This document shows positions 39,350-63,090 of a DNA stretch of 64,000 nt, piece by piece; position 1 is the stretch's first letter, and each line of letters starts with the position of its first letter. Origin of the DNA: an uncultured Bacteroidales bacterium. GTDB taxonomy: Bacteria > Bacteroidota > Bacteroidia > Bacteroidales > Paludibacteraceae. The notes under the pieces are model-generated. The model worked only from the letters and a program-made list of their open reading frames with translations. It ran no database searches and had not been told where the DNA came from. The stretch lies in NCBI GenBank assembly GCA_900316005.1, contig ONBH01000005.1, positions 1-64,000 of the forward strand, written 5' to 3'. Position numbers and translations under genes: made by a program.

Positions 39350-39353
39350 TGCT

Positions 39354-40247
39354 ATGCCGGATATAGTTTTGCAAAATAAACTCACGGAACTATTCTTCCT
39401 TTTTCCAGAGTATATTGATGCCAATCATAGAGCATCTGCTCCGTATATCCATGATATGACCTACCATTTTGATGCGGTTCAACCTTCTTTCGTGGATAAT
39501 GTTATAAGGTTGTTGACGTTCTTTTCGTACGAGCGTAATGTGACAAAGTATTATGACAAAAAGAACTTGGACGGTATGTTATATCCTTACCAAGAATTGG
39601 AATACCCGTTTGTCGATACGCAAGTTCGTACAACCTTGCGCGATTTGGACGTTGTTGATTGGCGCATCGAGTTAGGAGAGGATGATACAATCATTGAATG
39701 GCATGGAACGCAGATACCTAATGATACAGTTGCGAAGGTGTACGAACGTGCACATACCGATACTCCAGATTTGTTGGTTCATGCCACCTTGTTCTCTGTA
39801 GGAGATGCTATTGAAAACGATGGAGAAACGATTGTTTTTAAGAAAGAAAATGTGGATTGCTCGTTATCGTATCAAACAACATTGAGAGGATTACATGAAT
39901 GGCTAAGTGAAAATCGAATTCCCCAACGATACTTCAAATACAGCGAGAAGCATGGCGAGAATGGTGTTGGAGGTTGGATGTTGCCTAATAATGTTCCCGC
40001 AGCTGTCCTCGAATGTAATCGTGAACACGCACAAGAGATCCTTTGTAAGGCAATAGGGGATACTTCCTTGGATAATGATTTGTGGTATTTTGATGCGGAC
40101 TATGATAAGGTTTTGTATTTTGAATATGAGAATCAGAGTCCACAAAACGAATATCATGGCTATCACCTTTCGCAAGGCGACAAAGGATATAGTAAAGTTA
40201 AGTTTGATTTGTTGCGCTTAATCCAAGATATCCCCAATAATCACTAA
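39354..40247 (+). CDS. Hypothetical partner of the DUF3696 ATPase
   Basis: This 297-residue protein is not recognised. It is acidic, has no signal or membrane segment, and mixes helical and strand segments (FPEYIDANHRASAPYIHDM, LLTFFSYERNVTKYYDKK, NVPAAVLECNREHAQEI). It starts four bases after the ATPase and uses the same AT-rich codons, so it is almost certainly in the same operon. By analogy with other two-component ATPase systems it would be the effector or sensor; that is inference. Confidence 0.6.
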   Translation: MPDIVLQNKLTELFFLFPEYIDANHRASAPYIHDMTYHFDAVQPSFVDNVIRLLTFFSYERNVTKYYDKKNLDGMLYPYQELEYPFVDTQVRTTLRDLDVVDWRIELGEDDTIIEWHGTQIPNDTVAKVYERAHTDTPDLLVHATLFSVGDAIENDGETIVFKKENVDCSLSYQTTLRGLHEWLSENRIPQRYFKYSEKHGENGVGGWMLPNNVPAAVLECNREHAQEILCKAIGDTSLDNDLWYFDADYDKVLYFEYENQSPQNEYHGYHLSQGDKGYSKVKFDLLRLIQDIPNNH

Positions 40248-41126: not shown

Positions 41127-41306
41127 GCGTAGAAGCAGATAAATATACATCTGAAAATTTATTTACAAGTGGATATTTAGCTGATTATACGGAGGACGGA
41201 ACGTCTATATCCAAATCGTTACATACGCAAATCAGTGTTATTGATGTTTTTGTGATTCTTATTATGTCAATCGGTGAAATTAGAAAATAAAAACAACAAA
41301 AGATAT

Positions 41307-42596
41307 ATGAGCAATAATATTGCGATAGAATTTGAGCACGTGTCGAAACAATATCGGTTAGGGTTAGTGAGCACCAAGACCCTGAGCCACGACATTCGCC
41401 GCTTCTGGATCACCAACGTCCTCGGCAAGGAGGACCCGTATCTCAAGATCGGCGAGACCAACGACCGTGCCTCCAAGGGCAACTCCGAGTACGTCTGGGC
41501 GCTACGCGATATCGACTTCAAGGTCGAGCAAGGCGACGTCGTTGGCATCATCGGCAAGAACGGTGCCGGCAAATCCACTTTGCTCAAGCTCCTTTCCCGC
41601 GTTACCGGTCCTACTACCGGCACTATCCGTGCCCATGGCCGTATCGGCTCCTTATTGGAAGTTGGCACCGGCTTCCATGGCGAGATGACCGGGCGGGAGA
41701 ATATCTTCATGAACGGCGCCATCCTCGGCATGACGCGTAATGAGATCCAAGCCAAATTGGACGAGATCATCGATTTCTCCGGCTGCGAACGATATATCGA
41801 CACCCCGGTGAAGCGTTATTCCTCCGGTATGACAGTCCGTCTGGGATTCGCTGTTGCTGCTTTCCTCGAACCCGAGATTCTCGTCGTCGACGAGGTCCTC
41901 GCCGTCGGCGATGCCGAGTTCCAAAAGAAAGCCATCGGCAAGATGAAAGACGTCTCCCAAGGCCAAGGCCGCACCGTCCTCTTCGTTAGTCATAATATGA
42001 CTTCCGTGAAGTCCCTTTGCAAGACTGGTATCTTGCTAGAGAATGGAATGTTGAAAGAAATGGGTCATGTGGATCAGATAGTGAGCCACTACCTCCGTGG
42101 AGGAAGCGAGATTGATAACTACAAGCATTGGGACATTCCCCAATATAAGAATGGAGGTTTCGAATTGCTTGAGATTGGCATTCGTCCGAAATGTGGCACT
42201 TATACCGACGTGATGTGTGTGACAGATGATTTGGATTTAGTTATTCATTATCGTCTCACGGAGTCTAAAGAGAAGTTTTGGATTACGCTGCATATGAAGA
42301 ACGAACAGGGTGAAAAGATATTCTCTTTTAGTGCTTCTGAGGATGAAGTTCAACGAACTAAGAAAACAGGAGAATATAAGCAGATTTACCATATTCCTGC
42401 CAATTTTCTTAATTGGGGTAATTACGCCATAGATTTTATGTCATTTGAGTTCCTTTCCTCAGTGATACCATTGGTTATTGAGTCCGATATGATTTCTTTT
42501 ACGCTAGCAGGTAAATCTGTCGAAGTAGGTGGCTGGATGGGACGCGAACCTGGAGATGTAACTCCAAAATTTATATGTGAAGAAACGAGATTATAA
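41307..42596 (+). CDS. Polysaccharide ABC transporter ATP-binding protein, Wzt-like
   Basis: The 429-residue protein would energise export of O-antigen or capsule. Walker A is GKNGAGKSTLLKLL near residue 91, the signature VKRYSSGMTVRLGFAVA near 171-187 and Walker B LVVDEVLAVGD near 195. The C-terminal 180 residues form the Wzt-type carbohydrate-binding domain (beta-rich). The matching permease Wzm is not in the window, which is unusual. Composition changes sharply near 42000: the ATPase half is GC-rich, the C-terminal domain AT-rich, consistent with a domain swap. ATG 41307 gives the family start. Confidence 0.9.
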   Translation: MSNNIAIEFEHVSKQYRLGLVSTKTLSHDIRRFWITNVLGKEDPYLKIGETNDRASKGNSEYVWALRDIDFKVEQGDVVGIIGKNGAGKSTLLKLLSRVTGPTTGTIRAHGRIGSLLEVGTGFHGEMTGRENIFMNGAILGMTRNEIQAKLDEIIDFSGCERYIDTPVKRYSSGMTVRLGFAVAAFLEPEILVVDEVLAVGDAEFQKKAIGKMKDVSQGQGRTVLFVSHNMTSVKSLCKTGILLENGMLKEMGHVDQIVSHYLRGGSEIDNYKHWDIPQYKNGGFELLEIGIRPKCGTYTDVMCVTDDLDLVIHYRLTESKEKFWITLHMKNEQGEKIFSFSASEDEVQRTKKTGEYKQIYHIPANFLNWGNYAIDFMSFEFLSSVIPLVIESDMISFTLAGKSVEVGGWMGREPGDVTPKFICEETRL

Positions 42597-43975
42597 TGAT
42601 AAAATCGCTAATAAATAAGGGGGAAACCCATTCATCATTAGAGTTGCTGTTTCGTTGGATTATGCAGCGTAACCAGGATGTGGATGTCCAAGTGGAGCAG
42701 ATACCTTTTTCTCAGATGAATGGTTGGTACATGGATGCAGATGGGTGTATCCGGCATGAAACCGGCCGATTCTTCAGTATTGAGGGAATTCACGTGCGGA
42801 CGGATGTGAGTGTGACATATGAATGGGAGCAACCGATTATTAACCAACCGGAGATTGGGTACTTGGGAATCTTGACGAAAGAATTTGAGGGAGTGCTCTA
42901 TTTTTTGATGCAAGCAAAGATTGAGCCGGGCAATGTCAACTGCGTGCAGATTAGTCCGACTCTGCAAGCCACCAAGAGCAATTATACCCAGCAACACAAA
43001 GGACGCAAGCCATTGTATCTGGAGTTTTTTCAGAATGCCAAACCGCATCAGGTGTTGCTCGATCAGTTGCAGAGTGAGCAAGGTGCACGGTTCTTACGTA
43101 AACGGAATCGCAATATCATCATCAAAGTAGATGAGGACGTGCCGGTATATGAAGATTTCGCATGGATGACTTTGGCGCAAATAAAGGAACTGCTACACCA
43201 TGATAATATGGTGAATATGGATACGCGAACGGTACTTGCAGGGTTAGATTTTAGCCAATTTGAGATATCCAATGATGTCTTGGAAAAGATGTCTCCGTTT
43301 GGTCGGGATATGATAGCTTCTTCTCAAACGCACAAAGCGTACAATACTATGAATGAGCATTTGTCGTGGTTGACGCAACTAAAATCTATGGCAGAACTGA
43401 ATGTGCGTTATGTGCCGTTGAAGAATATCGGTGGCGGGTGGAAACAAGATGAGTACGAAATTAGTCGCAACGATAAGAAGTATTTCCGCGTTATCGGCAC
43501 ACGAGTGAACATCTCCAATCGAGAAGTTACATCGTGGTGTCAACCATTAGTGCAACCTATGCAAAAAGGTCTTTGTGCATTTATCATTAAGAAGATAGAT
43601 GGAGTTTATCACTTCCTCGTGCATGCTAAGATGGAGTGTGGAAACCTTGATGTATATGAATTGGCTCCGACTGTGCAATGCTTGACCGGTAACGTGCTGG
43701 ATGTGCCGAAGGATAAATGGCCGGCATACGTGGAGTATGTGATGAATGCGAAGCCGGAGCAGATATTGTATGATACATTCCAATCGGAAGAAGGGGGACG
43801 ATTCTACCATGAGCAAAATCGGAATATGCTTATTGAGGTAGGCGATGAGTTCCCGATAGATGTGCCGGCTGATTATCACTGGATGACGCTTGGGCAGATA
43901 CATGAGTTTATGCGATTCAATAATTACATTAATATTCAGGCACGTAGCTTAATCGCAGCGATTAAGTACGTGTGA
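42596..43975 (+). CDS. NDP-hexose 2,3-dehydratase
   Basis: The 459-residue enzyme removes water from NDP-4-keto-6-deoxyhexose at C2/C3, the first step to 2-deoxy sugars. It is an internal duplication: FSQMNGWYMDADGCIRHETG...FFSIEG in the first half recurs as NIGGGWKQDEYEISRND...YFRVIGT in the second. Each half later shows a QAKIEPGNVN/HAKMECGNLD motif and a QSEQGARF/QSEEGGRF motif, the substrate-binding pockets. The ATG overlaps the Wzt-like stop by one base. It fits a deoxyaminosugar pathway with the next genes. Confidence 0.9.
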   Translation: MIKSLINKGETHSSLELLFRWIMQRNQDVDVQVEQIPFSQMNGWYMDADGCIRHETGRFFSIEGIHVRTDVSVTYEWEQPIINQPEIGYLGILTKEFEGVLYFLMQAKIEPGNVNCVQISPTLQATKSNYTQQHKGRKPLYLEFFQNAKPHQVLLDQLQSEQGARFLRKRNRNIIIKVDEDVPVYEDFAWMTLAQIKELLHHDNMVNMDTRTVLAGLDFSQFEISNDVLEKMSPFGRDMIASSQTHKAYNTMNEHLSWLTQLKSMAELNVRYVPLKNIGGGWKQDEYEISRNDKKYFRVIGTRVNISNREVTSWCQPLVQPMQKGLCAFIIKKIDGVYHFLVHAKMECGNLDVYELAPTVQCLTGNVLDVPKDKWPAYVEYVMNAKPEQILYDTFQSEEGGRFYHEQNRNMLIEVGDEFPIDVPADYHWMTLGQIHEFMRFNNYINIQARSLIAAIKYV

Positions 43976-45588: not shown

Positions 45589-46674
45589 ATGAAGAATATT
45601 TATGTTACCATGCCGACATTGGCACCCTTGGAGGAAGTGGATGCATACCTGAAGCAAGTGTGGGAATCCGGTGTGATGACGCATAATGGTCCGTTGCTCC
45701 GTAAGTTCGAACATGATGTGGCTGAATGGCACGGTATGCAGCATCATACGGTAGTGGTAAATGGAACTATTGCTCTGCAATTGGCAATCCTTGCGTTAGG
45801 CTTGAAAGGTGAGATTATCACCTCTCCGTTCTCGTTTATCGCAACAACAAGTGCTATCATGTATGAGGGCTGTACACCGGTATATGCAGACATCAACCCA
45901 GAGACGTTGAATGTCGATCCGGCAGCCATTGAAGCCGCCATTACGGATAAGACAGTAGCGATCATGCCTGTACATGTGTTTGGTAATACTTGCGAGATAG
46001 AGGTAATAGAAGCCATTGCAAAGAAGCACAATCTAAAGGTAATCTATGATGCGTGTCACTCGGTAGGTGTGCGATACAAAGGCAAGAGTGTCTTTGCCTA
46101 TGGCGATGTGTCTTGCACCAGTTATCATGCTACCAAGATGCTTAACTCTGGAGAAGGAGGAGGATGTTATACCAACGATGCAAAATTGGATGCCAAGATG
46201 AAGCGTATCCGCTTCTTCGGTTTCTCGGAAGATAAGACGAATGTGGTAGAAGAAGGTTCCAATCTCAAGATGACAGAGGTACATGCTTCGGTTGGTTTGG
46301 CGAACCTCAAATACCTGCAAGCCGCATTGGATGACCGGAAGGAGAAGTACATGCTTTATAAACAATTGCTATCAGCTAATCCGAAGTGCCATTTCCAACG
46401 CATCAATGAAGATAGTTGTAACTATAGTTATTTCCCATTGATTTTGGATTCGGAGGAAACATTGCTGAAAGTAGATGCAGCTTTGCAAGCGGAGCATGTG
46501 TTTGCGCGTAGGTATTTCTATCCGTCGCTGAACACGTTCACGGACATCGTGCCGTACGTCAAGATGCCGCATAGCGAAGATATTGCCAGTCGCATTCTTT
46601 GCTTGCCGCTATATTATACCTTGCAGAAAGAGGATGTAGAGAGAATAGCAAAGGTGATACTGAAAACACTATAA
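45589..46674 (+). CDS. DegT/DnrJ/EryC1 family sugar aminotransferase
   Basis: The 361-residue PLP enzyme transfers an amino group to a keto-sugar nucleotide. NGTIALQLAILALGL (cofactor phosphate), SPFSFIATTSAIMYEG, DACHSVGVRYKG and the Schiff-base lysine Lys183 in SYHATKMLNSGEGG are all present. After a 2,3-dehydratase and a ketoreductase, the product is likely a 4-amino (or 3-amino) deoxysugar. It lies between an S23 gene and the membrane/MBL cargo. Confidence 0.93.
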   Translation: MKNIYVTMPTLAPLEEVDAYLKQVWESGVMTHNGPLLRKFEHDVAEWHGMQHHTVVVNGTIALQLAILALGLKGEIITSPFSFIATTSAIMYEGCTPVYADINPETLNVDPAAIEAAITDKTVAIMPVHVFGNTCEIEVIEAIAKKHNLKVIYDACHSVGVRYKGKSVFAYGDVSCTSYHATKMLNSGEGGGCYTNDAKLDAKMKRIRFFGFSEDKTNVVEEGSNLKMTEVHASVGLANLKYLQAALDDRKEKYMLYKQLLSANPKCHFQRINEDSCNYSYFPLILDSEETLLKVDAALQAEHVFARRYFYPSLNTFTDIVPYVKMPHSEDIASRILCLPLYYTLQKEDVERIAKVILKTL

Positions 46675-48661: not shown

Positions 48662-49921
48662 ATGCCCAAACAAAAGAAAATATTACTTTTAGGAGGAGAC
48701 AACCTGCTCTTGCCTGTGATCAAATCCGCGCATGAGTTGGGGTGCTATGTCATTACGGTGGACTATCTGCCGGATAACGTGGCGCACAAGTACTCCGACG
48801 AATACCAATATGCCAGCACGACCGATAAAGAAGCGGTGCTTGAGATAGCCAAGAAATGCCATATAGACGGCATTCTGACGTTCACAGATTCGGGCGTGGT
48901 GACAGCTGGTTATGTTGCTCATGAGTTAGGCCTACCTTCTCCCGGCCCTTATGAATCCATACAAATACTCCAGAACAAAGGTCGTTTCCGTCAGTTCTTA
49001 GCCGAGCATGGTTTTAATGTGCCTAAAGCGAAAAGTTATACTGCTATAGATGTAGCTCTCGGTGAAAAAGAGGATTGGACTTATCCAGTTATCGTGAAGC
49101 CTGTTGATTCCGCAGGAAGCAAAGGTGTTACAAAAGTAGAAAGCAAGGATCAATTAGAAGATGCAGTAGTATTTGCTTTGGAATATTCCATTTCAAGTGA
49201 ATTCATAATCGAAGAATGGATAGAGAAAGTTGGCTGCTCATCTGATTCAGACTGCTTCTCTCTAAATGGACAATTTCAAATGTTAACCTACTCAGCCCAG
49301 CGCTTTGATGAGAAAGCAGCTAATCCCTATGCTCCGGCTGCATTTAGTTGGCCTTCTACAATGGGTAAACAGGTAGAAGAAGAATTATCATCGGAACTAC
49401 AAAGACTAATTACGCTTTTAGGTATGCAAACCTCGATATATAATATTGAGACTCGTTTGGGAACAGATAGCAAGCCTTATATTATGGAAGTGAGTCCGCG
49501 TGGAGGAGGCAACCGTTTGGCAGAGGTGGTAAGATACGCAACTGGAGTAGATATGATAACCAACGCCGTTCGCGGTGCGTTGGGCATGCCAATAGAAGAA
49601 ATAGGATCATGGGAATATAGCGGACATTGGGCAGAAATTATGCTGCATAGTTATAGTAATGGTGCATTCCAATCTCTTGACATCAATGAAGATGTAAGAC
49701 CCTATGTGCGAGATCTGTCTCTATGGGTAAAAGAAGGAGATATGATACATAAGTTCGAGAGTGCACGATATGCAATCGGTTCTCTTATCCTTTGTTTCCC
49801 CGATGAGCAAATGATGTTAGACAGACTTGCCCATCAAGGTGATTGGCTGAAGATTTATTTAGATAATACGTATAATATGCTGAAAATAAGCAAGTTGGAT
49901 AAATTCTCGGGGGGGGGGTAA
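48662..49921 (+). CDS. ATP-grasp ligase with poly-G 3' end
   Basis: The 419-residue protein has an N-terminal pre-ATP-grasp domain (ILLLGGDNLLLPVIKSAHELG), the ATP-binding lid (YPVIVKPVDSAGSKGVTKV) and the Mg-binding block (YIMEVSPRGGGNRLAEVVR) of carboxylate-amine ligases related to PurK, BtrJ and CarB. In polysaccharide clusters such enzymes attach amino acids or similar acids to sugars. The gene ends in a run of ten G residues encoding SGGG just before the stop, so slippage would change the C-terminal tail. It lies upstream of wbqC. Confidence 0.85.
   Translation: MPKQKKILLLGGDNLLLPVIKSAHELGCYVITVDYLPDNVAHKYSDEYQYASTTDKEAVLEIAKKCHIDGILTFTDSGVVTAGYVAHELGLPSPGPYESIQILQNKGRFRQFLAEHGFNVPKAKSYTAIDVALGEKEDWTYPVIVKPVDSAGSKGVTKVESKDQLEDAVVFALEYSISSEFIIEEWIEKVGCSSDSDCFSLNGQFQMLTYSAQRFDEKAANPYAPAAFSWPSTMGKQVEEELSSELQRLITLLGMQTSIYNIETRLGTDSKPYIMEVSPRGGGNRLAEVVRYATGVDMITNAVRGALGMPIEEIGSWEYSGHWAEIMLHSYSNGAFQSLDINEDVRPYVRDLSLWVKEGDMIHKFESARYAIGSLILCFPDEQMMLDRLAHQGDWLKIYLDNTYNMLKISKLDKFSGGG
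49909..49918 (+). repeat. Poly-G tract (10 G) at the 3' end of the ATP-grasp gene
   Basis: Ten consecutive G residues followed by TAA. With 10 G the protein ends SGGG; with 9 it gains a 13-residue tail (KSLLIAPRLLKAA); with 11 it ends GGGVNLS. This is the longest G run in the window. Confidence 0.95.
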
Positions 49922-49979: not shown

Positions 49980-50669
49980 ATGACAATCGGAATAATGCAA
50001 CCGTATTTTATGCCATATATTGGCTATTGGCAATTGATGAAAGCAGTGGATAAGTATGTGGTGTATGATGATGTGAATTTTATCAAACGCGGCTGGGCGA
50101 ATAGAAACAACATCTTGTTAAACGGAGAGCCCTATATGTTTTCTGTAGCATTGAGCGGTGCAAGCCAAAATAAATTATTTAACGAGATAGATATAATTGA
50201 TGATTTTGGTAAATTGAAGAAAACTTTGTACTATGCGTATAACAAGGCTCCATACTATGAGAAAACAATGCAGTTGCTTGATGAAATATTTGAATATCAC
50301 GATAAGAATTTAGCTCGTTTTCTATATCATAGTTTTTTCGTGATATTGAACTATCTGGATGTTCAAACTGAGTTGATAATGTCATCTTCTGTCGATAAGG
50401 ATAATAGCTTAAAGGGACAAAGTAAGATTTTGGATATATGTAGTGTATTGCAAGCTGATCGATATATCAATGCCATAGGTGGGCAAGAACTATATAATCA
50501 TGATGAGTTTGCGCAGAACGGAATAGAATTAAAGTTTCTTCATCCGAATATTGTTTCTTATCAGCAGTATAAGCATGAATTTGTGCCGAATTTATCAATC
50601 ATAGACATGATGATGTTTAATGGGAAAGAAAGAACGAAGAAACTATTAAATGAATATACATTGGTATGA
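49980..50669 (+). CDS. wbqC: WbqC-like family protein
   Basis: The 229-residue protein begins TIGIMQPYFMPYIGYWQLM, followed by VVYDDVNFIKRGWANRNNIL and the mid-protein LDVQTELIMSSS, LKGQSKILDICSVLQA, YINAIGGQELY blocks of the WbqC family. Members lie in O-antigen clusters of many phyla and are thought to act on amino-sugar nucleotides or their acyl groups; no reaction is proven. It overlaps the next aminotransferase by four bases (ATGA). Confidence 0.9.
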   Translation: MTIGIMQPYFMPYIGYWQLMKAVDKYVVYDDVNFIKRGWANRNNILLNGEPYMFSVALSGASQNKLFNEIDIIDDFGKLKKTLYYAYNKAPYYEKTMQLLDEIFEYHDKNLARFLYHSFFVILNYLDVQTELIMSSSVDKDNSLKGQSKILDICSVLQADRYINAIGGQELYNHDEFAQNGIELKFLHPNIVSYQQYKHEFVPNLSIIDMMMFNGKERTKKLLNEYTLV

Positions 50670-51640
50670 CAAACGCAATAGGCGGATATTTTGAGAAGGA
50701 ACCTCGGACGAGAGAGGAACATGCTATCCCGCAAAAGGATGGCATCTTGCTCAATACTGCGAGGAATGCTTTTGAGTATATATTGCGTTCTATTCCGAAT
50801 CTCCGTGGTGTATATCTTCCGTACTACACATGCAATGTCATGCTCGAACCGCTCAAACGATTGTTTGGCGTGTCGTTCGCCTTCTATCATATCACGCATC
50901 AATTGGAGATCGCAGAAGACTTTGATTTGGGTGAAGGGGAGTATATAGTAGTGAATAACTACTTTGGCATAAAAGACAAGTATGTGAGCCGAATGGCAGA
51001 CAAGTATAAAGATCGCCTAATCGTGGATAATGCACAAGCGTTCTATGCTCCGGTGATAGACGGAATCAAAGCCATCTATAGTGCGCGTAAGTTCTTCGGT
51101 GTTCCGGATGGTGGAATAGCTTATCTGCCGAATGACAACAAACAGTGGGAATGGTACGAGACGGATGACTCAGTTGACAGGTTAGCCCATCTGAGAATCC
51201 GTTTGGAGCAAGGACCGGAGGCTGGGTATGCTAAGTATCGCGAGGCTGAGGATAAGTTAGATTATCAGCCGATAATGCAAATGTCCGCTTATACACGTGA
51301 TGCATTGAGTCATATTGATTACAATATCGCACAACAAGTACGCAGAAGGAATTTTCGGATACTGCATGATGCATTGAGTGATTATAATGTATTGCCGATA
51401 CCGGATATAGAGTCATTCGCCTGTCCTATGGTATATCCATTCTTGGATGTCCGGAAATGCGATTGGCGATACAAAATGAAAGGACAACGGATATTTATTC
51501 CGAAATTTTGGCCTAACGTGATTAGTTATGGACATTTTGATTTTGAGTCAATGTTAGCTGACCGAATCATGCCTCTGCCCATAGATCAGAGGTACAATGA
51601 AGAAGATATGAAACGAATAATTGAAATTATATTTGATTAG
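50666..51640 (+). CDS. PLP-dependent aminotransferase-like protein, divergent DegT family
   Basis: The 324-residue protein is shorter than normal DegT enzymes. NTARNAFEYILRSIPNLRGVYLPYYTCNVMLEPL forms the cofactor-phosphate region, spread over two segments, and VDNAQAFYAP holds the aspartate that pairs with the PLP nitrogen. SARKFFGVPDGGIAYL carries the probable Schiff-base lysine Lys142. Genes of this subtype typically follow wbqC. It would make an amino-sugar nucleotide; the substrate is unknown. Confidence 0.8.
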   Translation: MTNAIGGYFEKEPRTREEHAIPQKDGILLNTARNAFEYILRSIPNLRGVYLPYYTCNVMLEPLKRLFGVSFAFYHITHQLEIAEDFDLGEGEYIVVNNYFGIKDKYVSRMADKYKDRLIVDNAQAFYAPVIDGIKAIYSARKFFGVPDGGIAYLPNDNKQWEWYETDDSVDRLAHLRIRLEQGPEAGYAKYREAEDKLDYQPIMQMSAYTRDALSHIDYNIAQQVRRRNFRILHDALSDYNVLPIPDIESFACPMVYPFLDVRKCDWRYKMKGQRIFIPKFWPNVISYGHFDFESMLADRIMPLPIDQRYNEEDMKRIIEIIFD

Positions 51641-51786: not shown

Positions 51787-52965
51787 TTGCAATTGCATAT
51801 GAAAACAGAAAATAGCATAGATTTAGAAATGAAAATAGATGAGAACTCAACGCAACTTGATTTTGAAGGGGAGGAAACTCTAAATCCTTCAATTAGCGCT
51901 AAATCATCTATTGGTAGTGTATATCCCAATGCTGTCTTGAATATTGTACGTGATACGGCATCTGTATTTCAGTTAAAGAGAAAGAGGGAAAAATGTCCAC
52001 CATTATTGGATCTGACACCTCCATTCCAGCGAGAATTAGTATGGACCAAAAAGCAAAAATGCGAATTGATTGAATCCATTCTGATGGGCATACCATTACC
52101 TGCTTTTTATGTGCGAGAAGATATGAATGGGGTTTATGTGGTTGTGGATGGTAAACAAAGATTATCTACATTGTTTGATTTTATTGATGGAAAATTCAAA
52201 TTAGATAACCTAACTATTCTGAGAGATAAAAACAAAATGTCATTTGAAGATTTATCTCCTGTTGAACAAAATAAAATTGAAGATTACTCTTTAAATGTAA
52301 ACGTAATCAAGAGTCCCACCGACGACCAAGTTACTTTTGATTTGTTTGATAGAGTGAATCGTAGCGGTACAAAACTTAATAATCAAGAGATGCGCAATGC
52401 TCTCTATCAGGGAACATCGACAAAATTGATAGATGAGCTGGCTCAAGTTGGGTCGTTCTTGAAAGCTACTGAAAAATCTTTACCCAAAAAGCACATGAAG
52501 GATCGATATATAGTATTGCGTTTTATTGCTTTTTATTTATTGCAGGAGCATATGAGCAAAGATACGGAGACTGGAGAAATATTGGAATATAAAAGCAATT
52601 TAGAGGATTTTTTGGGGAAAACAATGAGGTTTCTTAATACGTTGCCGGTTGATGCTCCTCTAGTTAGTCATGTTAAAGATATATTTAAGCAATGCATGCA
52701 ACGTGCAACAGATGTGTTGTTGCCTTTAGGTGGATTTCGTTTACCTCAAGAGGGAACCCAGCGCAGACCTTTGAATATGGCTTTCTTTGAAAGCGTTTCG
52801 TACCTGCTTTCTCGAACCATGGAGGAATCAGATACATACATAGAAGATACATACTATGAACTATTGGGAAACCAAGAGTATATTTCTACTTTGACATATT
52901 CTGTGGATAGTGCTCAACAGATTCAAAAAAGATATTCTATTATACGTAAATACATTAAAATGTAA
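51787..52965 (+). CDS. DUF262 domain protein (ParB-like NTPase/nuclease fold)
   Basis: The 392-residue protein has the DUF262 core. PPFQRELVWTKKQKCELIESILMGIPLPAFYV lies at about 78-110 in two adjoining blocks, then VVVDGKQRLSTLFDF (the DGQQR motif, here DGKQR), then FDRVNRSGTKLNNQEMRNALY. The C-terminal half is helical. In GmrSD-type enzymes this domain binds NTP and controls a nuclease; here no DUF1524 HNH domain follows in the same protein. It is the first gene of a three-gene operon with its own promoter, followed after four bases by an ATPase. Confidence 0.88.
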   Translation: MQLHMKTENSIDLEMKIDENSTQLDFEGEETLNPSISAKSSIGSVYPNAVLNIVRDTASVFQLKRKREKCPPLLDLTPPFQRELVWTKKQKCELIESILMGIPLPAFYVREDMNGVYVVVDGKQRLSTLFDFIDGKFKLDNLTILRDKNKMSFEDLSPVEQNKIEDYSLNVNVIKSPTDDQVTFDLFDRVNRSGTKLNNQEMRNALYQGTSTKLIDELAQVGSFLKATEKSLPKKHMKDRYIVLRFIAFYLLQEHMSKDTETGEILEYKSNLEDFLGKTMRFLNTLPVDAPLVSHVKDIFKQCMQRATDVLLPLGGFRLPQEGTQRRPLNMAFFESVSYLLSRTMEESDTYIEDTYYELLGNQEYISTLTYSVDSAQQIQKRYSIIRKYIKM

Positions 52966-52969
52966 TGTT

Positions 52970-54001
52970 ATGCTGAAACAATTGATTGTAAGAAGATTTA
53001 AATCAATAAAAGAGGCAACTGTTGCTCTAAGCCAACTTAATTTGTTTGTAGGAGCAAATTCAGCAGGAAAATCATCTGCTATTCAGGCACTCATGTTAGC
53101 TCTGGATAACAACATGATTGGAGCTGATGAGCAATTATGTGAAATGGTTCATCTACGAGCAAGTTCTTTCAATGAACTCCGTTGTTTCGTGCTTAATGCG
53201 AAATCATTTGAGATTCATCTGGATGATGTGCCATTTATGTTTCGTCCTGCTGATGATAATATGATACAGACTACCGTGCAAAGAAATAGCGATAAAGTGG
53301 GCGAGTATACTAACATATTGTATTTGCCTGCAATGAGGAATGCAGATTTAAGTCATGTCGGCATTAACTCATCTCCTCGCAATAATCCACTTGGTAGAAA
53401 TGGAGAATATGTTATAGATTACTACTATAATCACCGTAAAGATGTTTTGCCACAATCACTTATTGTTGATAAGAGTCTGGAAACATTAGAAGGGCAAGTG
53501 AATTATTGGCTGAATAAGTTAACTGGATATAATATTCAAGTATTATTGCAAGGCTCAGAATATCAAGTCCACTTTGAAGACCCGAATAAAAAGATGCTGT
53601 CTCCTATTCATGTGGGAACGGGAATTAGTTTTATTGTTGAATTACTGATCGTTTGTTTGTCTGCAAAGAAAGGAGATGTCATTATTATTGAAAATCCTGA
53701 AATTCATCTGCATCCTTCGGCACAAGCATCAATCATTGATTTCTTGGCTATGATCGCTGCGAATAGTTCTGCTCAACTCTTTATAGAAAGTCATAGCGAC
53801 CATTTGTTTAATGGTATTCGACGTTTGTTGCATGAAGAGAAACTAAAGTTGAATGAGGTGTCTGTTTATTATTTTACACGTGATGAAAATGGACTTTCGT
53901 CTGCCCAAGAAGTTCAGCTAAGTCAATATGGCGGACTCAAGAATTATATACCGGGAATGTTTGATCAGTTCGATGAGGATTTAGATGCTATCCTGAAATA
54001 A
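52970..54001 (+). CDS. AAA/ABC-type ATPase with DUF3696-like end
   Basis: The 343-residue protein starts LKQLIVRRFKSIKEA. It has Walker A GANSAGKSS near residue 30, HVGTGISFIVELLIV (signature region), Walker B IIIENPEIHLHPSAQ near 245 and the ESHSDHLFNGIRRLL loop near 275. It ends ELSQYGG-like (QLSQYGGLKNYIPGMFDQ). It lacks TOPRIM and other effector domains. Its layout matches the ATPase at 38171-39349, but the sequences are clearly diverged. ATG 52970 is chosen over an upstream ATG that overlaps the DUF262 gene by 56 bases. Confidence 0.85.
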   Translation: MLKQLIVRRFKSIKEATVALSQLNLFVGANSAGKSSAIQALMLALDNNMIGADEQLCEMVHLRASSFNELRCFVLNAKSFEIHLDDVPFMFRPADDNMIQTTVQRNSDKVGEYTNILYLPAMRNADLSHVGINSSPRNNPLGRNGEYVIDYYYNHRKDVLPQSLIVDKSLETLEGQVNYWLNKLTGYNIQVLLQGSEYQVHFEDPNKKMLSPIHVGTGISFIVELLIVCLSAKKGDVIIIENPEIHLHPSAQASIIDFLAMIAANSSAQLFIESHSDHLFNGIRRLLHEEKLKLNEVSVYYFTRDENGLSSAQEVQLSQYGGLKNYIPGMFDQFDEDLDAILK

Positions 54002-54014
54002 ATTTGTTTGTGAT

Positions 54015-54893
54015 ATGGATCATATACTCAACGAATTATCGCTCGCTGGACAATTTCAATCTGTAGATGACTTTGTTCAGGAAGGAGCATTGCCTTTAGC
54101 GGATGTCTTGGCTGATATCGCCAAATTTGGAGGCACTTTATTATATAAGAAAAGTGATTTTTATTTATGTAATGCTTTGCCAAATATGACTTTTTATGAT
54201 TTGGTGATAGCAGGTACTCCGGCTCGAACCAATGATTCTTTAAGAAAGTTGAAAAGTAAATTAGCATTTTTAATGAATGAGCCGCATTGGGATCTAAATC
54301 CGCAGCAAAACGAAAAGGCAATCTACCTTATGGTAGATAATTCTGGAAAAGAAATAGATGTTTCTGGCACTTCAGTAGCAGAGGCATTAGTTAGAAAAGC
54401 ATGTTTGGTGTCTTTTGCAAAGTCTGCGTTTGTCCAAACTCCCATCAAAGTTAAGGAAAAAACTGAAAAAACTTATGATGATGTTGAAAATGTATGGCAA
54501 AGAGGGCAAGTGTGCGATATATTACAAAAGGCGGGTGTCCTTTCAATAGAAGATTATATAATCGGTAAATATTCGGGAAAATTAGATTTCTCAAAAATAG
54601 ATGCTAAAAACGGTTTTTCTTTAATTGATTCTGCTAACTTGTCTGTATTCGAGTCGGGATTTAGAAAATTTAACGAGTTACTATGGTCACAAATCCCAAT
54701 GGATGATGCATTAGACTATAAAGAATTTCATAATAATGCTAATACAAAACGGTTTTTTCATAAAGAAATATGGAACAAAGGTGTAAGGAAATTCCGCATA
54801 ACTCAGGAAATTCGCTGTTTTGGCTATGTTGAAGGAGGAACTTTTTATGTTTTGCGTTTTGATTTGGGTCATTTACTAAGTGATTTAGGATAA
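54015..54893 (+). CDS. Hypothetical protein, third gene of the DUF262/ATPase operon
   Basis: The 292-residue protein is not recognised. The N-terminal half includes ADVLADIAKFGGTLLYKKSD and AGTPARTNDSLRKLKSKLAF. The C-terminal 50 residues (KFRITQEIRCFGYVEGGTFYVLRFDLGH) show a two-strand FRI...R.FGY..G..FYVLRFD pattern that recalls compact RelE/HigB-like nuclease folds; this is only a resemblance. AT-rich like its neighbours, it starts 14 bases after the ATPase. Confidence 0.55.
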   Translation: MDHILNELSLAGQFQSVDDFVQEGALPLADVLADIAKFGGTLLYKKSDFYLCNALPNMTFYDLVIAGTPARTNDSLRKLKSKLAFLMNEPHWDLNPQQNEKAIYLMVDNSGKEIDVSGTSVAEALVRKACLVSFAKSAFVQTPIKVKEKTEKTYDDVENVWQRGQVCDILQKAGVLSIEDYIIGKYSGKLDFSKIDAKNGFSLIDSANLSVFESGFRKFNELLWSQIPMDDALDYKEFHNNANTKRFFHKEIWNKGVRKFRITQEIRCFGYVEGGTFYVLRFDLGHLLSDLG

Positions 54894-57450: not shown

Positions 57451-58281
57451 ATGGATAAAATAACTTCTATAGAGCATCTAAAAGAACTGATACTTAATGT
57501 CTGCAATCAGCACCAAGGTTTCGTCACGAATTTCTATTTGGACGAAGAAAAACATGCAGCTTGGATTCGGACAGGAGAGTTCCTGTTTGATAAGTATGAC
57601 GATACGGTGTTCTTGCTGTTTGATCATTATGCTCCGGATAATGAGAAATATTTCACAAATATGTATTATATCTCAATATCGGAGAATACAATGTTGGCGC
57701 GACTAAAGGAATATCCGGAAAAGTATATATACGACTTGTATGTTTTGGACATTGTTGGTTGCGATGAGATGTGCTTACCGTTAGTTGAGAAACTGAAAGC
57801 GATGTGTGGATATAATGACGCGACTTTAGTTCGAATGAATCGTGTTGGTGAGTTAGACGCATGTTTGGCTAAGCAAGGAGAGCATATCCGCTATGCTGAC
57901 TTGATGGATTTGAAATCTATTAACGAATTATTGCATACGCATTTTGATGAGCAGCTGGAGCAGTTACCTTTAGAGGACGAACTGGAGAAAATGATAGAGC
58001 AACGACATGTGTTGGTTTGTGATAGAGGAGACAAAGTAGCGGGAATGCTGCTGTTTGATTTAAGTGCTTCAACTTTGTATCTGCGATATTGGTTGGTTCT
58101 TCCGGAATTTAGGAATATGGGAGTGGGTAGTGAACTGTTACACCATTTCTTATGGGAAGGACGTAAAACAAAACGGCAGATACTATGGGTGAACCAGGCG
58201 AATGAAAATGCTATAATCCGATATGAGCACTACGGATTCAAGAAAGAGAATTTGTATGATTATATTATCAAGTATTGTTGA
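57451..58281 (+). CDS. GNAT N-acetyltransferase with extra N-terminal domain
   Basis: The 276-residue protein carries a C-terminal GNAT domain (about 150-275): RYADLMDLKSINELLH, VAGMLLFDLSASTLYLRYWLVLPEFRNMGVGSELLHHFL across adjacent motifs, and NENAIIRYEHYGFKKENLY. The acetyl-CoA loop is RNMGVGS. The N-terminal 145 residues may be a degenerate second GNAT domain. In this cluster it would acetylate an amino sugar. It precedes a second GNAT gene by 30 bases. Confidence 0.85.
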   Translation: MDKITSIEHLKELILNVCNQHQGFVTNFYLDEEKHAAWIRTGEFLFDKYDDTVFLLFDHYAPDNEKYFTNMYYISISENTMLARLKEYPEKYIYDLYVLDIVGCDEMCLPLVEKLKAMCGYNDATLVRMNRVGELDACLAKQGEHIRYADLMDLKSINELLHTHFDEQLEQLPLEDELEKMIEQRHVLVCDRGDKVAGMLLFDLSASTLYLRYWLVLPEFRNMGVGSELLHHFLWEGRKTKRQILWVNQANENAIIRYEHYGFKKENLYDYIIKYC

Positions 58282-58311
58282 TATGAAACGAATATTAAAA
58301 TTGATTATATA

Positions 58312-58818
58312 ATGACAGTATCAATACGTCCTTTAAAAATAGAAGATGCCTATACGTCTGTGAAATGGCGCAATGATTCAGAAGTGTTTCGATATACTGG
58401 AAATACTTACAATCATAGTATTACGATTGAGTCTGAATTAGCGTGGATAAAACGAGTGATAAATAAGGAAGATGATTATCGTTGTGCCATTGAAGTAGAT
58501 GGTATATATGTCGGAAATATTTATTTGACAGACATCCATGACGGTGAAACTGAGTATCATATATTTCTTGGAAATAAAGAATACTGGGGAAAAGGAATCG
58601 CAAAAGAAGCATCAAAACTCATTATTAAATATGCATTTGAGAAACTCAAATTAAAGAGGATAATACTCTTGGTGAAAGAAGAAAATGTAAATGCAGTCAA
58701 ACTATATATAAAATTAGGATTTAAATGTGTTAAAATAGAAAACTCTTGGATGAAGATGGAATTAGCGAATGGGGGTAAATTGTATAAAGTAGCCGTCCTC
58801 GCATCGGTGGGGGGGTAA
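58312..58818 (+). CDS. GNAT acetyltransferase reading into a poly-G switch
   Basis: The 168-residue frame holds a complete RimJ/RimL-type GNAT domain: IRPLKIEDAYTSVKWRND, CAIEVDGIYVGNIYLTDI, WGKGIAKEASKLIIKYAF and NVNAVKLYIKLGFKCVKIE. After it, KLYKVAVLASVGG is the start of a formyltransferase domain, cut off by a stop directly behind a run of seven G. With six or nine G the frame continues into the formyltransferase at 58817-59344, giving one bifunctional protein of about 344 residues. Confidence 0.85.
   Translation: MTVSIRPLKIEDAYTSVKWRNDSEVFRYTGNTYNHSITIESELAWIKRVINKEDDYRCAIEVDGIYVGNIYLTDIHDGETEYHIFLGNKEYWGKGIAKEASKLIIKYAFEKLKLKRIILLVKEENVNAVKLYIKLGFKCVKIENSWMKMELANGGKLYKVAVLASVGG
58809..58815 (+). 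repeat. Poly-G tract (7 G) at the GNAT/formyltransferase junction
   Basis: Seven G residues lie at the glycine-rich loop (VAVLAS.GG.NFEA) of the formyltransferase. Seven G gives a stop right after the run; six or nine restores the reading frame; eight gives a stop nine codons later. It is the second poly-G tract in the cluster. Confidence 0.95.
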
Positions 58819-59344
58819 TTTTGAAGCCGTAGTTAAGAAATCACAATTGTATGGATATCAAGTGATTCGTTTGATTGTGAATAAACAATGTGCAGCAATT
58901 GCAAAGGCAGAAAAACTTAGGGTACCATGTACCGTGATAGAAAAAAAAGGTGATGAACTATTTGTAGATATAGATAATGTACTCTCAATGGATGAGGTGA
59001 ACTTGATAGTATTAGGTGGATTCATGCCAATAGTTCCGGCATGGTTCTGCAAAAAGTGGACTAATAAAATTATTAATATACATCCATCCTTATTGCCTGC
59101 ATATGGGGGCAAAGGTATGTATGGGGTACATGTGCAGGAAGCGGTTATGGCGGCAAAAGAGAAATATGCCGGATGTACCGTCCATTATGTTAATGAGGGA
59201 ATCGATAGCGGTGAGATTATTGAACAATGGAAGATAATGGTTGATTACTCTTTAACCCCTTGGGAATTGGGCGGCGAGATATATAACCGCGGAATAGAGA
59301 TGTTACCTATGGTAATAGGGAATTTAGCAAAAAAGAAGTATTAA
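58817..59344 (+). CDS. PurN-like formyltransferase domain, out of frame with its start
   Basis: From NFEAVVKKSQ this frame encodes a phosphoribosylglycinamide-formyltransferase-like domain. The catalytic Asn and His occur in INIHPSLLPAYGGKGMYG, and the catalytic Asp in CTVHYVNEGIDSGEI. The first beta strand (KVAVLAS) is encoded in the upstream GNAT frame, across the poly-G. The only in-frame start here (TTG 58847) would lose that strand. In a sugar cluster it probably N-formylates an amino sugar rather than GAR. As sequenced it is in the OFF state. Confidence 0.85.
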   Translation, partial: NFEAVVKKSQLYGYQVIRLIVNKQCAAIAKAEKLRVPCTVIEKKGDELFVDIDNVLSMDEVNLIVLGGFMPIVPAWFCKKWTNKIINIHPSLLPAYGGKGMYGVHVQEAVMAAKEKYAGCTVHYVNEGIDSGEIIEQWKIMVDYSLTPWELGGEIYNRGIEMLPMVIGNLAKKKY

Positions 59345-59359
59345 TTTTGATTTTGAACA

Positions 59360-60352
59360 ATGAAACAAGAAGAACCTATATTAGTTGCTATCCATTGTCT
59401 CGTGTATAATCACGAGCCATATCTTCGTGATTGCTTCGAGGGATTTGTGATGCAGAAGACCAATTTCCGCTTTGTGGCAGTTGTGCATGAGGACGCTTCG
59501 ACGGACAATAGTGCTGTTATAATTCGTGAATATGAAGCCAAATATCCTGATATCTTCCGTCCCATATATGAAACGGAGAATCAATGGCACAAAACGGATG
59601 GCTCACTTGGACGTATTATGAATGCTGCAATTAATGCTACCGGAGCCAAATATGTCGCTATGTGTGAGGGAGATGACTATTGGACAGATCCGTATAAGTT
59701 GCAGAAACAGGTGGATTTCTTGGAGGAGCATGAGGAGTTTTCGCTTTGCTGCCATGGGTATAGTATTTTGAATGTAGACAAAGGAACGATGGTTGAGAAG
59801 CGAGTGGTTCTGCCACCTGAGTCCAAAGATGGATTGATGTTCACGAATGCAGAGAACATGATGGAGTGGTACACCAAGACGCCGACTGTTCTCATGCGAG
59901 CTGACGTATATAAAGCAGTGCCGGACTTGTCGATCTTTAAATATGCATGCGACACTTACATATTTTACTACATACTTAAACAAGGAAAAGGTTACTACCT
60001 TTCTTTTAACGGCGCGGTATATCGAGCTCATGGTGGGGGAGTGTATTCTTCGCTTTCGTCTTTTAAGAAGGATTTGAATTGCGTTAAGATTTTTTATGAA
60101 ATCTATACTCATAATCGGGAAGATGATGTGTTAGAACAGCAACTCCTTGACACTATTAAATGGGTGTCTGATGAAATTATCTGGAACTTAAAAGATAAAG
60201 AATGGACATTAGATGTGTTTGAAGGTATTTCGCTCATTAATACTATATTATATAAGGAGAAGAAATACAAAGATTTATTTGCTTGGCATAAGAAGTTAGC
60301 TATAAGCCAATTTAAACGAGTGAAGAGAAAATTTAAGAAATATATAGTATAA
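59360..60352 (+). CDS. Family 2 glycosyltransferase
   Basis: The 330-residue enzyme has a GT-A fold: VAIHCLVYNHEPYLRDCFEGF, VVHEDASTDNSAVIIREYEAKY, and MCEGDDYWTDPYKLQKQVDFLEEH carrying the metal-binding DD motif (EGDDYWTD). The C-terminal 120 residues are helical and basic. It is cytoplasmic, without a membrane anchor. It begins 15 bases after the formyltransferase domain. Donor and acceptor sugars cannot be told. Confidence 0.93.
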   Translation: MKQEEPILVAIHCLVYNHEPYLRDCFEGFVMQKTNFRFVAVVHEDASTDNSAVIIREYEAKYPDIFRPIYETENQWHKTDGSLGRIMNAAINATGAKYVAMCEGDDYWTDPYKLQKQVDFLEEHEEFSLCCHGYSILNVDKGTMVEKRVVLPPESKDGLMFTNAENMMEWYTKTPTVLMRADVYKAVPDLSIFKYACDTYIFYYILKQGKGYYLSFNGAVYRAHGGGVYSSLSSFKKDLNCVKIFYEIYTHNREDDVLEQQLLDTIKWVSDEIIWNLKDKEWTLDVFEGISLINTILYKEKKYKDLFAWHKKLAISQFKRVKRKFKKYIV

Positions 60353-60364
60353 TAATTCTCATAA

Positions 60365-61225
60365 ATGAAACAACCATTATTTTCCATATTGATTGCCAAT
60401 TATAATAATGGCAAGTACTTGATGGATGCGATAGAGAGTGTCCGTCAGCAGACGTTTTCCAATTGGGAGATTGTGCTGGTGGATGATGCTTCAACGGATA
60501 AGTCGGAGGAGTTGTATGTGGCGTTAGAGAAGGATGAACGTATCCATATCTATCGCAATGAGCAGAATATGGGCTGCGGCTATACGAAACGTCGTTGTGC
60601 TGAATTAGCGAAAGGTGAGTTGTGCGGATTTCTCGATCCGGATGATGTGCTGTTGCCTAATGCGGTAGAGGATAGTGTGGCGAACTTGCGGAGTCATCCG
60701 AAATGTGCACTGAGTTTCTCGCGGTTCTATACTTGTGATGAGAACCTCAATCGGACTGGTGAATGTCGCTTGTTAGAGTTGAAGGGTAAGAGTTATTTTG
60801 AGAATAGGGACTATTGTCCGGAGCACTTTGTGGCTTTTCGTAAAAATGCATATGACAAAACGGATGGAATAGACGCAACGTTAAAAGCCGGAGTTGATCA
60901 AGACTTATATTTCCGGTTAGAGGAGGTAGGTGAGGCTTTGGTGCTGAATAAGTTTACCTATCTGTATCGGCAGAACACCAGTGCATTGACATCGAAGCCA
61001 TACTGGTGCTATTATTGGAATACGATTGTTCGGCATAACACATGCTTACGTCGTGGTTTGCCGGATAAGGATTTTGCGTATGCGGACTATTTGCAGATTG
61101 TGACGGAGAATGAGCGGTATGCTCGTGAGCAAGTAGAAAAGATGCAGCAATCAAAGGCGTATCGGTTGGGTAAAGCGATACTAAAACCGTTTAGTTGGCT
61201 TCGCCGTGTAAAGTGTAAGGTGTAA
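60365..61225 (+). CDS. Family 2 glycosyltransferase
   Basis: The 286-residue enzyme shows SILIANYNNGKYLMDAIESVRQQTF, VLVDDASTDKSEELY and CGFLDPDDVLLPNAV (DxD-type DPDD), then a CPEHFVAFRKNAYDKTDGIDATLKAGVDQDLYFRLEEVG acceptor region read over adjacent blocks. The C-terminus (EQVEKMQQSKAYRLGKAILKP) is an amphipathic basic helix that may touch the membrane. The tail and following spacer are built of GTGTAAAGTGTAAGG words. Confidence 0.93.
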   Translation: MKQPLFSILIANYNNGKYLMDAIESVRQQTFSNWEIVLVDDASTDKSEELYVALEKDERIHIYRNEQNMGCGYTKRRCAELAKGELCGFLDPDDVLLPNAVEDSVANLRSHPKCALSFSRFYTCDENLNRTGECRLLELKGKSYFENRDYCPEHFVAFRKNAYDKTDGIDATLKAGVDQDLYFRLEEVGEALVLNKFTYLYRQNTSALTSKPYWCYYWNTIVRHNTCLRRGLPDKDFAYADYLQIVTENERYAREQVEKMQQSKAYRLGKAILKPFSWLRRVKCKV

Positions 61226-61237
61226 AGTGTAAGGTGA

Positions 61238-62182
61238 ATGAAACTAAGTATCATCATATTATCTTATGCTCTCGATGACGAGGTGTATCAGATGAACTGT
61301 CGGGCGATTGAGTCGTTGTTTGCGTCGGAGGAGTGGGATTCTAAAAGTGGAGAGACGAGAGACGAGAGTCGAGAGACAGAATTGGAAGTGCTCTTGTTGG
61401 AGAGTAACCGAGAGGCTGGATACACCTATGATGTGCGCGTAAGGGTAATGATGCCGGAGGAGAAGTTCGGGTTTCATCGGTTCTTCAATATAGGATTAGA
61501 CAATACGAGCGGAGACTTTGTTGCCTTCTGTAATAACGATATTGTTTTTATGCCCGGATGGTGGAGCGCTATCATGCGCGTTAAAGAACAGCATCCGAAG
61601 TTCATGTGCTTCTCGCCGGTAGATAGCAGTTATCTCATGATGGCAGAGGAGATAGCGAAAGGGAAAGATTATACGATTGGTTGGGATAATAAACGTCATT
61701 TTGCGGGATGGTGCTTTGTGTGGGAACGGAAAGTGTTTAAGACCATTGGACGGTTTGACGAACAGTATGATTTTTACTCTGCGGATGATGATGAGCTAAT
61801 GACGCTACGCTTTTATGCGATACCCAATGTATTAGTGATCGGCAGTGAGGTAAAACACTTGAGTCAGGTAGTAACAAAAAAAGTGGGTATCAGTAAATAT
61901 GCTGTAACGGACAAAGAGAAATATCCGCTGTCAGAATACGAACTCCAGCGCAAATTGAGATGGTTATGGGACGATGTGCGGTTCTACATAGGATACCGAC
62001 GTGAAGAGGCTAAATGGGGTAATCTACATATGCGGCAGCGTTTAAATAGGTTCATTATGCAGCACTTATGGCTAAATGTTCGTCCTGTAACACAGATTCT
62101 TTACAATCGAAATGTAATCCGTTTATTAGCGCGAATAACCGGCGTTTCTGACCCAAATCCGGTTCATTTTAGCGAGTTTTGA
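61238..62182 (+). CDS. Family 2 glycosyltransferase with an in-frame low-complexity insert
   Basis: The 314-residue enzyme begins LSIIILSYALDDEVYQMN and has HRFFNIGLDNTSGDFVAFCNND (FCNND as the DxD equivalent), HFAGWCFVWERKVF and FYSADDDELMTLR. Residues about 36-48 (DSKSGETRDESRE) are encoded by AGAGACGAGAGACGAGAGTCG repeats at 61350-61380, interrupting the second beta strand region, where relatives have a short loop. Otherwise typical of Bacteroidales GT2 enzymes. Confidence 0.9.
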   Translation: MKLSIIILSYALDDEVYQMNCRAIESLFASEEWDSKSGETRDESRETELEVLLLESNREAGYTYDVRVRVMMPEEKFGFHRFFNIGLDNTSGDFVAFCNNDIVFMPGWWSAIMRVKEQHPKFMCFSPVDSSYLMMAEEIAKGKDYTIGWDNKRHFAGWCFVWERKVFKTIGRFDEQYDFYSADDDELMTLRFYAIPNVLVIGSEVKHLSQVVTKKVGISKYAVTDKEKYPLSEYELQRKLRWLWDDVRFYIGYRREEAKWGNLHMRQRLNRFIMQHLWLNVRPVTQILYNRNVIRLLARITGVSDPNPVHFSEF

Positions 62183-62213
62183 ATACAAAATGAAAATATT
62201 TTGCAAATAATGG

Positions 62214-62253
62214 CATATACATTTGTATATGTCATTTTTTTTTTGTATCTTTG
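62214..62253 (+). promoter_or_regulatory. Promoter with 18-bp palindrome before a glycosyltransferase
   Basis: Palindrome CATATACATTTGTATATG (62214-62231) overlaps the -33 TTG; TATCTTTG lies at 62246-62253. A hairpin with GCACGC/GCGTGC arms follows directly (62254-62273), between transcript start and the ATG. Confidence 0.85.
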
Positions 62254-62274
62254 CACGCAAAACTGTGCGTGCAT

Positions 62275-63090
62275 ATGCGTAAGCTATCAATAATAACTAT
62301 AAATAGGAATAATACGGAGGGACTTCGGAAGACAATGGAGTCGGTCTTTAGGCAGACATACCGCGACATTGAGTATATTGTTATCGACGGAGCAAGTACA
62401 GATGGATCCGTTGATATTATCAAGGAGTTCGCTTCGAAAGTCTCGAGCGGAAAGTCGAGAGTGGAGAGTTTCTTATGGGTAAGTGAGCCGGATAGGGGAG
62501 TGTATGAGGCGATGAATAAGGGGATAATGAAGGCATCCGGTGAGTATTGTTTGTTTTTGAATAGCGGTGACTTCTTGATAGCACCGGATGTGATAGAACG
62601 TGTGATGAAGCAATGCAATGGCGCGGATATTCTCTGTGCGCGGTGCAATGTGTCGGATGATGGGAAAGTTATATGGACCAGTAATCCACCGGAGAATATC
62701 ACATTCGGTACACTCTATACGGTAGGCTTGGCGCATCAGTCTACATTCATCAAGCGGACACTTTTTGATACCTGCAGATTGTATCAAGAGGATTTTCGGT
62801 ATAATGCGGATATAGCATTTTGGTATAAAACAATCATCGATAATCATGCGACGACGCAGCGAATAGATGTCGTTACGACAGACTATAACTTAGACGGGAT
62901 TTCCTCTAGAGAGAATCAGAGCGAACAATACAAGAAAGAAATGGAAATCATTCTTGCGCCTTATGCAAAGTTTATACCGGATTATGAGGAGTTGCTTGCT
63001 CATCGAAGAGAGCATGTAGTATTGAATTGGATAAAAAGACATAAGATGGTATATTATATGGTGAAATTGTTGTATAAAATCGGGAAGTAA
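62275..63090 (+). CDS. Family 2 glycosyltransferase, WcaA-like
   Basis: The 271-residue enzyme has LSIITINRNNTEGLRKTMESV, YIVIDGASTDGSVDII and SGEYCLFLNSGDFL (NSGD). The typical WVSEPDRGVYEAMNKGI acceptor loop and LAHQSTFIKRTLF follow. Between DIIKEF and FLWVSEPD a stretch ASKVSSGKSRVES is encoded by TCGAGAGTGGAGAG-type repeats (62431-62470), longer than in usual homologues. ATG 62275 is preferred; the earlier TTG lies within the promoter. It overlaps the following stub by one base. Confidence 0.93.
   Translation: MRKLSIITINRNNTEGLRKTMESVFRQTYRDIEYIVIDGASTDGSVDIIKEFASKVSSGKSRVESFLWVSEPDRGVYEAMNKGIMKASGEYCLFLNSGDFLIAPDVIERVMKQCNGADILCARCNVSDDGKVIWTSNPPENITFGTLYTVGLAHQSTFIKRTLFDTCRLYQEDFRYNADIAFWYKTIIDNHATTQRIDVVTTDYNLDGISSRENQSEQYKKEMEIILAPYAKFIPDYEELLAHRREHVVLNWIKRHKMVYYMVKLLYKIGK

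Follow-up and report, generated by a model that had tools for sequence, protein, structure and literature searches.

In a 64,000-nucleotide stretch of an uncultured Bacteroidales genome (family Paludibacteraceae; hereafter, the window), a run of seven G separates the reading frames of an acetyltransferase and a formyltransferase, and the question is whether this run is a slippage-based switch, a fixed mutation, or an error in the consensus sequence. Surface variation in Bacteroidales is known chiefly from invertible promoters, and our literature search found almost nothing on poly-G slippage in the order. Slippage switching of the run emerges here as the leading explanation, ahead of a fixed recent pseudogene and of a consensus error, at a probability that we put slightly below an even chance.

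Results

Read directly, positions 58809 to 58815 of the forward strand are exactly seven G (G7). The run separates a complete PseH-like GNAT N-acetyltransferase (58312 to 58818, forward strand) from a PurN-fold formyltransferase domain in the +1 frame of the same strand (58817 to 59344). The GNAT frame encodes 168 amino acids, matches Acetyltransf_3 (Pfam PF13302, 7.9e-24) upstream of the run, and is terminated by a TAA immediately 3′ of it; before the run it passes without a stop into KLYKVAVLAS, the first strand of the PurN fold. The +1 frame is open from upstream of the run through 59344, and its part downstream of the run matches Formyl_trans_N (Pfam PF00551, 2.1e-28). Because both flanks of the run, KLYKVAVLAS and NFEAVV, align with EYGIVVCASGGGGNF of PurN-like relatives, the frame break is narrowed to about 10 nt, and the run occupies the substrate-loop codons of the domain. 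A sequence-only reading of the window had placed seven G at the glycine loop of a PurN-like domain with the stop right behind, and sequence, Pfam matches, and alignment confirm this. The alignment also bears out its claim that NFEAVV and the catalytic residues continue in the +1 frame, where N255, H257, and D298 (numbering of the fused protein) are invariant. Sequence inspection also found a second short G run, G5-TAAA, at 58771 to 58775 (forward strand), at the GNAT/PurN domain junction.

Chance alone would give 0.4 to 1.6 runs of at least seven G in the window, where two are observed, and the whole genome has 12 tracts of exactly seven. The notable feature is the coincidence of G7 with a frame break within a conserved loop, not the mere occurrence of such a run. 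Elsewhere in the genome, at least seven coding G7 or C7 tracts (L039, L042, L044, L045, L046, L048, and L049) are in frame, which makes a systematic assembly error unlikely. As in an SSR contingency locus, the homopolymeric tract lies within a reading frame, its length decides whether the distal part is in frame, and the gene, through its glycan cluster, belongs to a class typical of phasomes (surface glycan, RM); the tract is, however, shorter than the poly-G length of at least 9 that is used as the cut-off in phasome scans (PMC5953494).

When frames were recomputed for 6 to 12 G, a single open frame, of 343 to 345 amino acids, resulted only with 6, 9, or 12 G; with 7, 8, 10, or 11 G the frame is closed. 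The claim that either the removal of one G or the addition of two yields one open frame thus holds arithmetically for both changes, but only the addition restores the length of the loop. With 6 G the loop reads S-VGG-N, one residue short of the family length, whereas with 9 G it reads S-VGGG-N, with the four residues between S and N that the family has. The two closest relatives of the domain, L052 and L051, have the loop S-GGGG-N-F, and housekeeping PurN likewise has four residues between S and N, so that 9 G fits better than 6 G; judged from the sequence, normal loop length is probably regained by adding two G and not by removing one. The intact loops of L051 and L052 use mixed glycine codons (GGCGGTGGAGGC and GGTGGAGGTGGT) without poly-G, and the homopolymer is therefore not dictated by the protein motif.

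The downstream half is well preserved. Its 175 codons carry no second lesion, and of 46 residues on which five other PurN-family proteins all agree it keeps 40, the single invariant column lost to a gap being the loop itself. A structure model of the fused 6 G reading is confident in the PurN half, most of which reaches pLDDT 83-92, and poor in the GNAT half, because the alignment contained no GNAT relatives. The first start codon proper to the PurN-like frame, TTG at 58847, lies 3′ of the loop. In the fused reading the domain scores 112.7 bits against the NCBIfam PurN equivalog TIGR00639, below the cut-off of 150.1 and thus outside the equivalog, as are L051 and L052; the genus PurN (L005) passes at 156.7 bits. 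Profiles of known sugar N-formyltransferases are missed as well (ArnA, 19.9 against a cut-off of 777 bits; dTDP-4-amino-4,6-dideoxyglucose formyltransferase, 19.8 against 238 bits; NCBIfam).

The closest relatives of this half, L052 (genome G540) and L051 (genome G359), are 51% and 47% identical to it. The three group together in the tree (support 96/87) on a branch beside the genus PurN, the window row forming a long branch, and the nearest solved structures are GAR transformylases (PDB 4zyt, 1zlx, and 2ywr). All three clade members lie in glycan loci, the two relatives in those of other Bacteroidales: L052 beside DegT and WbqC, L051 fused to GT2, and the window domain in the cluster described below. 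Since the domain is nearest PurN rather than the known sugar N-formyltransferases, sugar N-formylation rests on genome context; family and context together argue against a role in purine synthesis. The families of the two closest relatives yielded no further clade members, and a literature search found no papers on PurN-like glycan formyltransferases. Matches to the PurN-like alignment among viral contigs were just 31 to 43% identical. In L051 (positions 421 to 2064) the PurN-like domain is fused to a GT2 glycosyltransferase, in a clade outside the known equivalogs. No other PurN, and no PurT, above cut-off was found in the window's genome, which leaves a purine role some small probability; PurN is also absent from most of the sampled genus, which suggests purine auxotrophy.

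The gene stands in a glycan cluster that comprises, on the forward strand, an O-antigen type (Wzt-like) ABC transporter ATPase (41274 to 42596; PF00005 and a weak PF14524 match), an NDP-hexose 2,3-dehydratase (42596 to 43975; PF03559, 5.7e-158), a DegT/DnrJ/EryC1 aminotransferase (45589 to 46674) and an ATP-grasp ligase (48662 to 49921), a WbqC-like protein (49980 to 50669; PF08889, 1.7e-66), a DegT-like protein recognized by sequence reading without a Pfam match (50666 to 51640), a GT2 glycosyltransferase just downstream of the formyltransferase frame (59360 to 60352), and three further GT2-type glycosyltransferases (60365 to 63090), together with a Gfo/Idh oxidoreductase. This gene set fits synthesis of a deoxy amino sugar, and the natural inference is therefore that the GNAT and the PurN-like half would N-acylate this sugar. 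The ATP-grasp gene carries a G10-TAA at its 3′ end (49909 to 49918, forward strand), which we weighed as a possible further switch and set aside, since other lengths alter only a non-conserved tail. Also in this region, another NsnB/NsnC-like pair, this one lacking NsnA, lies upstream of the cluster (38171 to 40247), and 47499 to 48551 matches a PDC-M48B/LmuA-type MBL protein.

In the sister genome G315 the cassette is the same except that it lacks the PurN-like part: a homologue of the DegT-like gene (94% DNA identity) is followed by the GNAT fused straight to GT2. DNA identity between the two genomes is 90% over the GNAT (58280 to 58648) and 82% over GT2 from 59360. In the window, the DegT-like gene and the GNAT are separated by a Menshen-type defence module (NsnA, NsnB, and NsnC; 51787 to 54893), which lies between two copies of a 26-nt sequence from the 3′ end of the DegT-like gene (51605 to 51630 and 58280 to 58305). 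Given this insertion and the different arrangement in G315, the locus is mosaic, and the GNAT has had at least two different downstream partners.

Homologues with a fused GNAT-PurN frame, which the sequence-only reading had named as a supportive result, were looked for and did not appear: neither the genus (178 genomes, GNAT query), nor 300 family, 393 order, and 395 class genomes, nor plasmid records yielded an in-frame fusion, and the same searches, with one genome per species, found no second copy of the gene. Only three other relatives of the GNAT occur within the genus at E ≤ 1e-22, and two of these three, both in sister species, have a long G tract at a DegT/GNAT junction: G8 in L036 (genome G276, 1941 to 1948) and G9 in L037 (genome G035, 1969 to 1977, minus strand). 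At their present counts both DegT frames end shortly past the tract, whereas a count of 7 or 10 G would give a DegT-GNAT fusion. In L037 no start codon precedes the domain in the GNAT frame, so at the present count a complete GNAT should not be made. The window's genome has about one tract of at least seven G every 100 kb; at that density the chance of two such junction tracts among three relatives is of the order of 1e-5 to 1e-4, an estimate whose density is taken from that genome only, and coincidence is very unlikely. The positions of the sister tracts differ from that in the window, which makes them parallel cases and not the same switch.

Tracts of at least nine G are present in 154 of the 178 genus genomes, and many are intergenic. 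From a sample of 101 tracts we obtained 19 sense-strand open reading frames (ORFs) of at least 200 amino acids, the window's own gene excluded, and six of these 19 are glycan or type I restriction genes (two N6_Mtase-Methylase_S, DegT, Acyl_transf_3, GT4, and pyruvyl transferase). As background we took 93 ORFs that adjoin intergenic tracts; the 25 families listed for them include two occurrences of HsdM_N and one each of N6_Mtase and an epimerase, and neither a glycosyltransferase nor DegT; because 38 further background families, of one or a few members each, lie beyond those listed, the contrast with 6 of 19 is indicative only. In two genomes (L078 and L081), G9 lies in frame at codon 499 of a fused N6_Mtase-Methylase_S, a candidate phase-variable specificity gene.

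Most coding poly-G tracts genus-wide are in frame, with split genes at 4 of 30 tracts against 14 of 406 controls; we dropped this excess as proof, the signal being weak and one of the four splits ascertained. TAA directly follows long G tracts in 15 of 43 cases, and TATTCG follows several more; many of the GnTAA tracts are intergenic, so the motif is not tied to glycan genes in particular. The tract sites match no Rfam family. A recurring intergenic G9-10, which is a C run on the opposite strand (L070, L071, L115, L117, L121, L126, L129, and L139), adjoins hairpin-like sequence and a TTTG motif like that of Bacteroidetes-type promoters, and these eight sites resemble a small RNA gene. The tracts at the sister junctions and in glycan and restriction genes suggest a poly-G phasome, so far undescribed, in this Paludibacteraceae-like genus.

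Discussion

The mechanism that we favor takes 58312 to 59344 as one gene for a putative bifunctional sugar N-acyltransferase, a PseH-like acetyltransferase joined to a PurN-fold formyltransferase, in an ABC-transporter-dependent O-antigen or other glycan locus. The G run, lying in the phosphate-loop codons, would slip and so bring the downstream half into frame or take it out: 9 G, possibly also 6 or 12, would yield the fusion protein, and 7 or 8 G the acetyltransferase alone plus a few residues, so that the present G7 would be the OFF phase for the second half. That the acetyltransferase is made in both states, as previously claimed, agrees with a GNAT domain that is complete either way. We infer that run length changes within the population, that the substrate is the amino sugar which the neighboring dehydratase and aminotransferase supply, and that this sugar is converted to its N-formyl or N-acetyl form. 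The broader claim of a poly-G switch of sugar N-formylation thus stands in part: it is favored by the frame break at poly-G, the glycan cluster, the analogous sister tracts, and the poly-G tracts in other glycan and restriction genes of the genus, and weakened by a G7 below the usual cut-off, the lack of a fused relative, and a domain nearest PurN.

The strongest competitor, which we consider unlikely but by no means negligible, is that a one-off slippage inactivated the formyltransferase half, leaving a recent pseudogene with a fixed count and a GNAT that works alone. G7 is short and would be slow to slip, no fused GNAT-PurN relative was found, and the GNAT-GT2 fusion of G315 indicates that the PurN-like part is dispensable; yet the lesion-free 175 codons retain the conserved residues, and the break lies exactly in a homopolymer, the most reversible type of mutation. 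Somewhat less probable is an error of consensus or assembly, the true count being 9 (or 6) and the gene always in frame. Homopolymers are the usual site of such errors, the genome is a draft in 56 contigs, and 9 G equals the family loop length, but the seven other coding G7/C7 tracts, as well as A8 and T8 runs inside window ORFs, are in frame, and a survey of the window ORFs found no other broken gene.

Programmed recoding, by a ribosomal +1 (or -2) shift at GGG-UAA or by RNA polymerase slippage, would produce some fusion protein from G7 itself. A stop right behind a slippery glycine codon is a layout like that of +1 shift sites; the downstream RNA structure is not unusual (z = -1.4), however, no relative shares the arrangement, and a +1 shift would give the short loop, all of which makes recoding improbable. 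We give still less credence, very little in all, to the downstream half being an independent gene, either housekeeping purN or a stand-alone enzyme. Its relatives L005-L013 and L052 are free-standing, and the genome search gave no other PurN or PurT above cut-off, but the GNAT frame runs through the first PurN-fold strand uninterrupted, the sole start of its own falls 3′ of the loop, and the domain scores below the PurN cut-off and groups with glycan-locus proteins.

Extending slippage switching beyond the window, we propose more tentatively, as a possibility to which we give distinctly less than an even chance, that the genus has a poly-G phasome in which tracts around the PseH-like GNAT act as domain-fusion switches. 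The acetyltransferase would stand alone or be joined to a PurN-like formyltransferase (window) or a DegT aminotransferase (two sisters), and the acyl groups on a surface sugar would vary accordingly. If this holds, gut and rumen Bacteroidales would have, besides the known one, an overlooked source of variation in surface and methylome: the slipped-strand switching of glycan acylation and type I restriction genes. The PurN-fold clade in glycan loci may also represent a new kind of sugar formyltransferase.

Of the enzymes to which the two halves can be compared, GAR transformylase PurN (TIGR00639; 4zyt, 1zlx, and 2ywr) shares with the window domain the fold, the catalytic Asn-His-Asp, the GGKGMYG segment, and the position of the loop; the window domain differs in its score below the equivalog cut-off, its loop SVGG(G)NF (SGGGGNF in L051 and L052) in place of the SGxGSN of PurN, its glycan cluster, and its TPWxLGG C-terminal segment. 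PseH, a UDP-4-amino-sugar N-acetyltransferase (TIGR03585), is the best NCBIfam equivalog for the GNAT, which likewise sits in an amino-sugar locus; the GNAT, however, scores 57.8 bits against a cut-off of 93.1, outside the equivalog, and is fused or junction-linked to DegT, GT2, or PurN-like domains.

As for the tract, poly-G/C LPS and capsule genes of Campylobacter, Helicobacter, and Neisseria also carry a homopolymer inside a surface-glycan gene, among them siaD, a known G7 case that switches at <1e-5 (PMC5953494); the window tract is at the short end of such lengths and would join two enzyme domains rather than truncate one. The Bacteroides fragilis PSI/9 locus has an acetyltransferase frameshifted by an extra C in a run of four C, for which slippage was proposed (PMC3090145). 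It too is a Bacteroidales polysaccharide locus with an acyltransferase frame altered at a C/G run, but its run is very short, it was found by strain comparison, and it has no fusion partner. The closest precedent is NgoAV hsdS1/hsdS2 of Neisseria gonorrhoeae, where G7 also splits two ORFs and the loss of one G gives a fused protein with a new activity; tract lengths there range from 6 to 9 G among strains, with 7 G (split) in 60 of 92 strains and 6 G in 15 (PMC9577141). NgoAV is a restriction specificity gene with documented strain variation, whereas the window gene is a putative Bacteroidales glycan acyltransferase known from one assembled sequence. The mechanism would thus be of a known kind in a new lineage and gene, and the fusion of domains, as opposed to a simple on/off change, would be its less usual feature.
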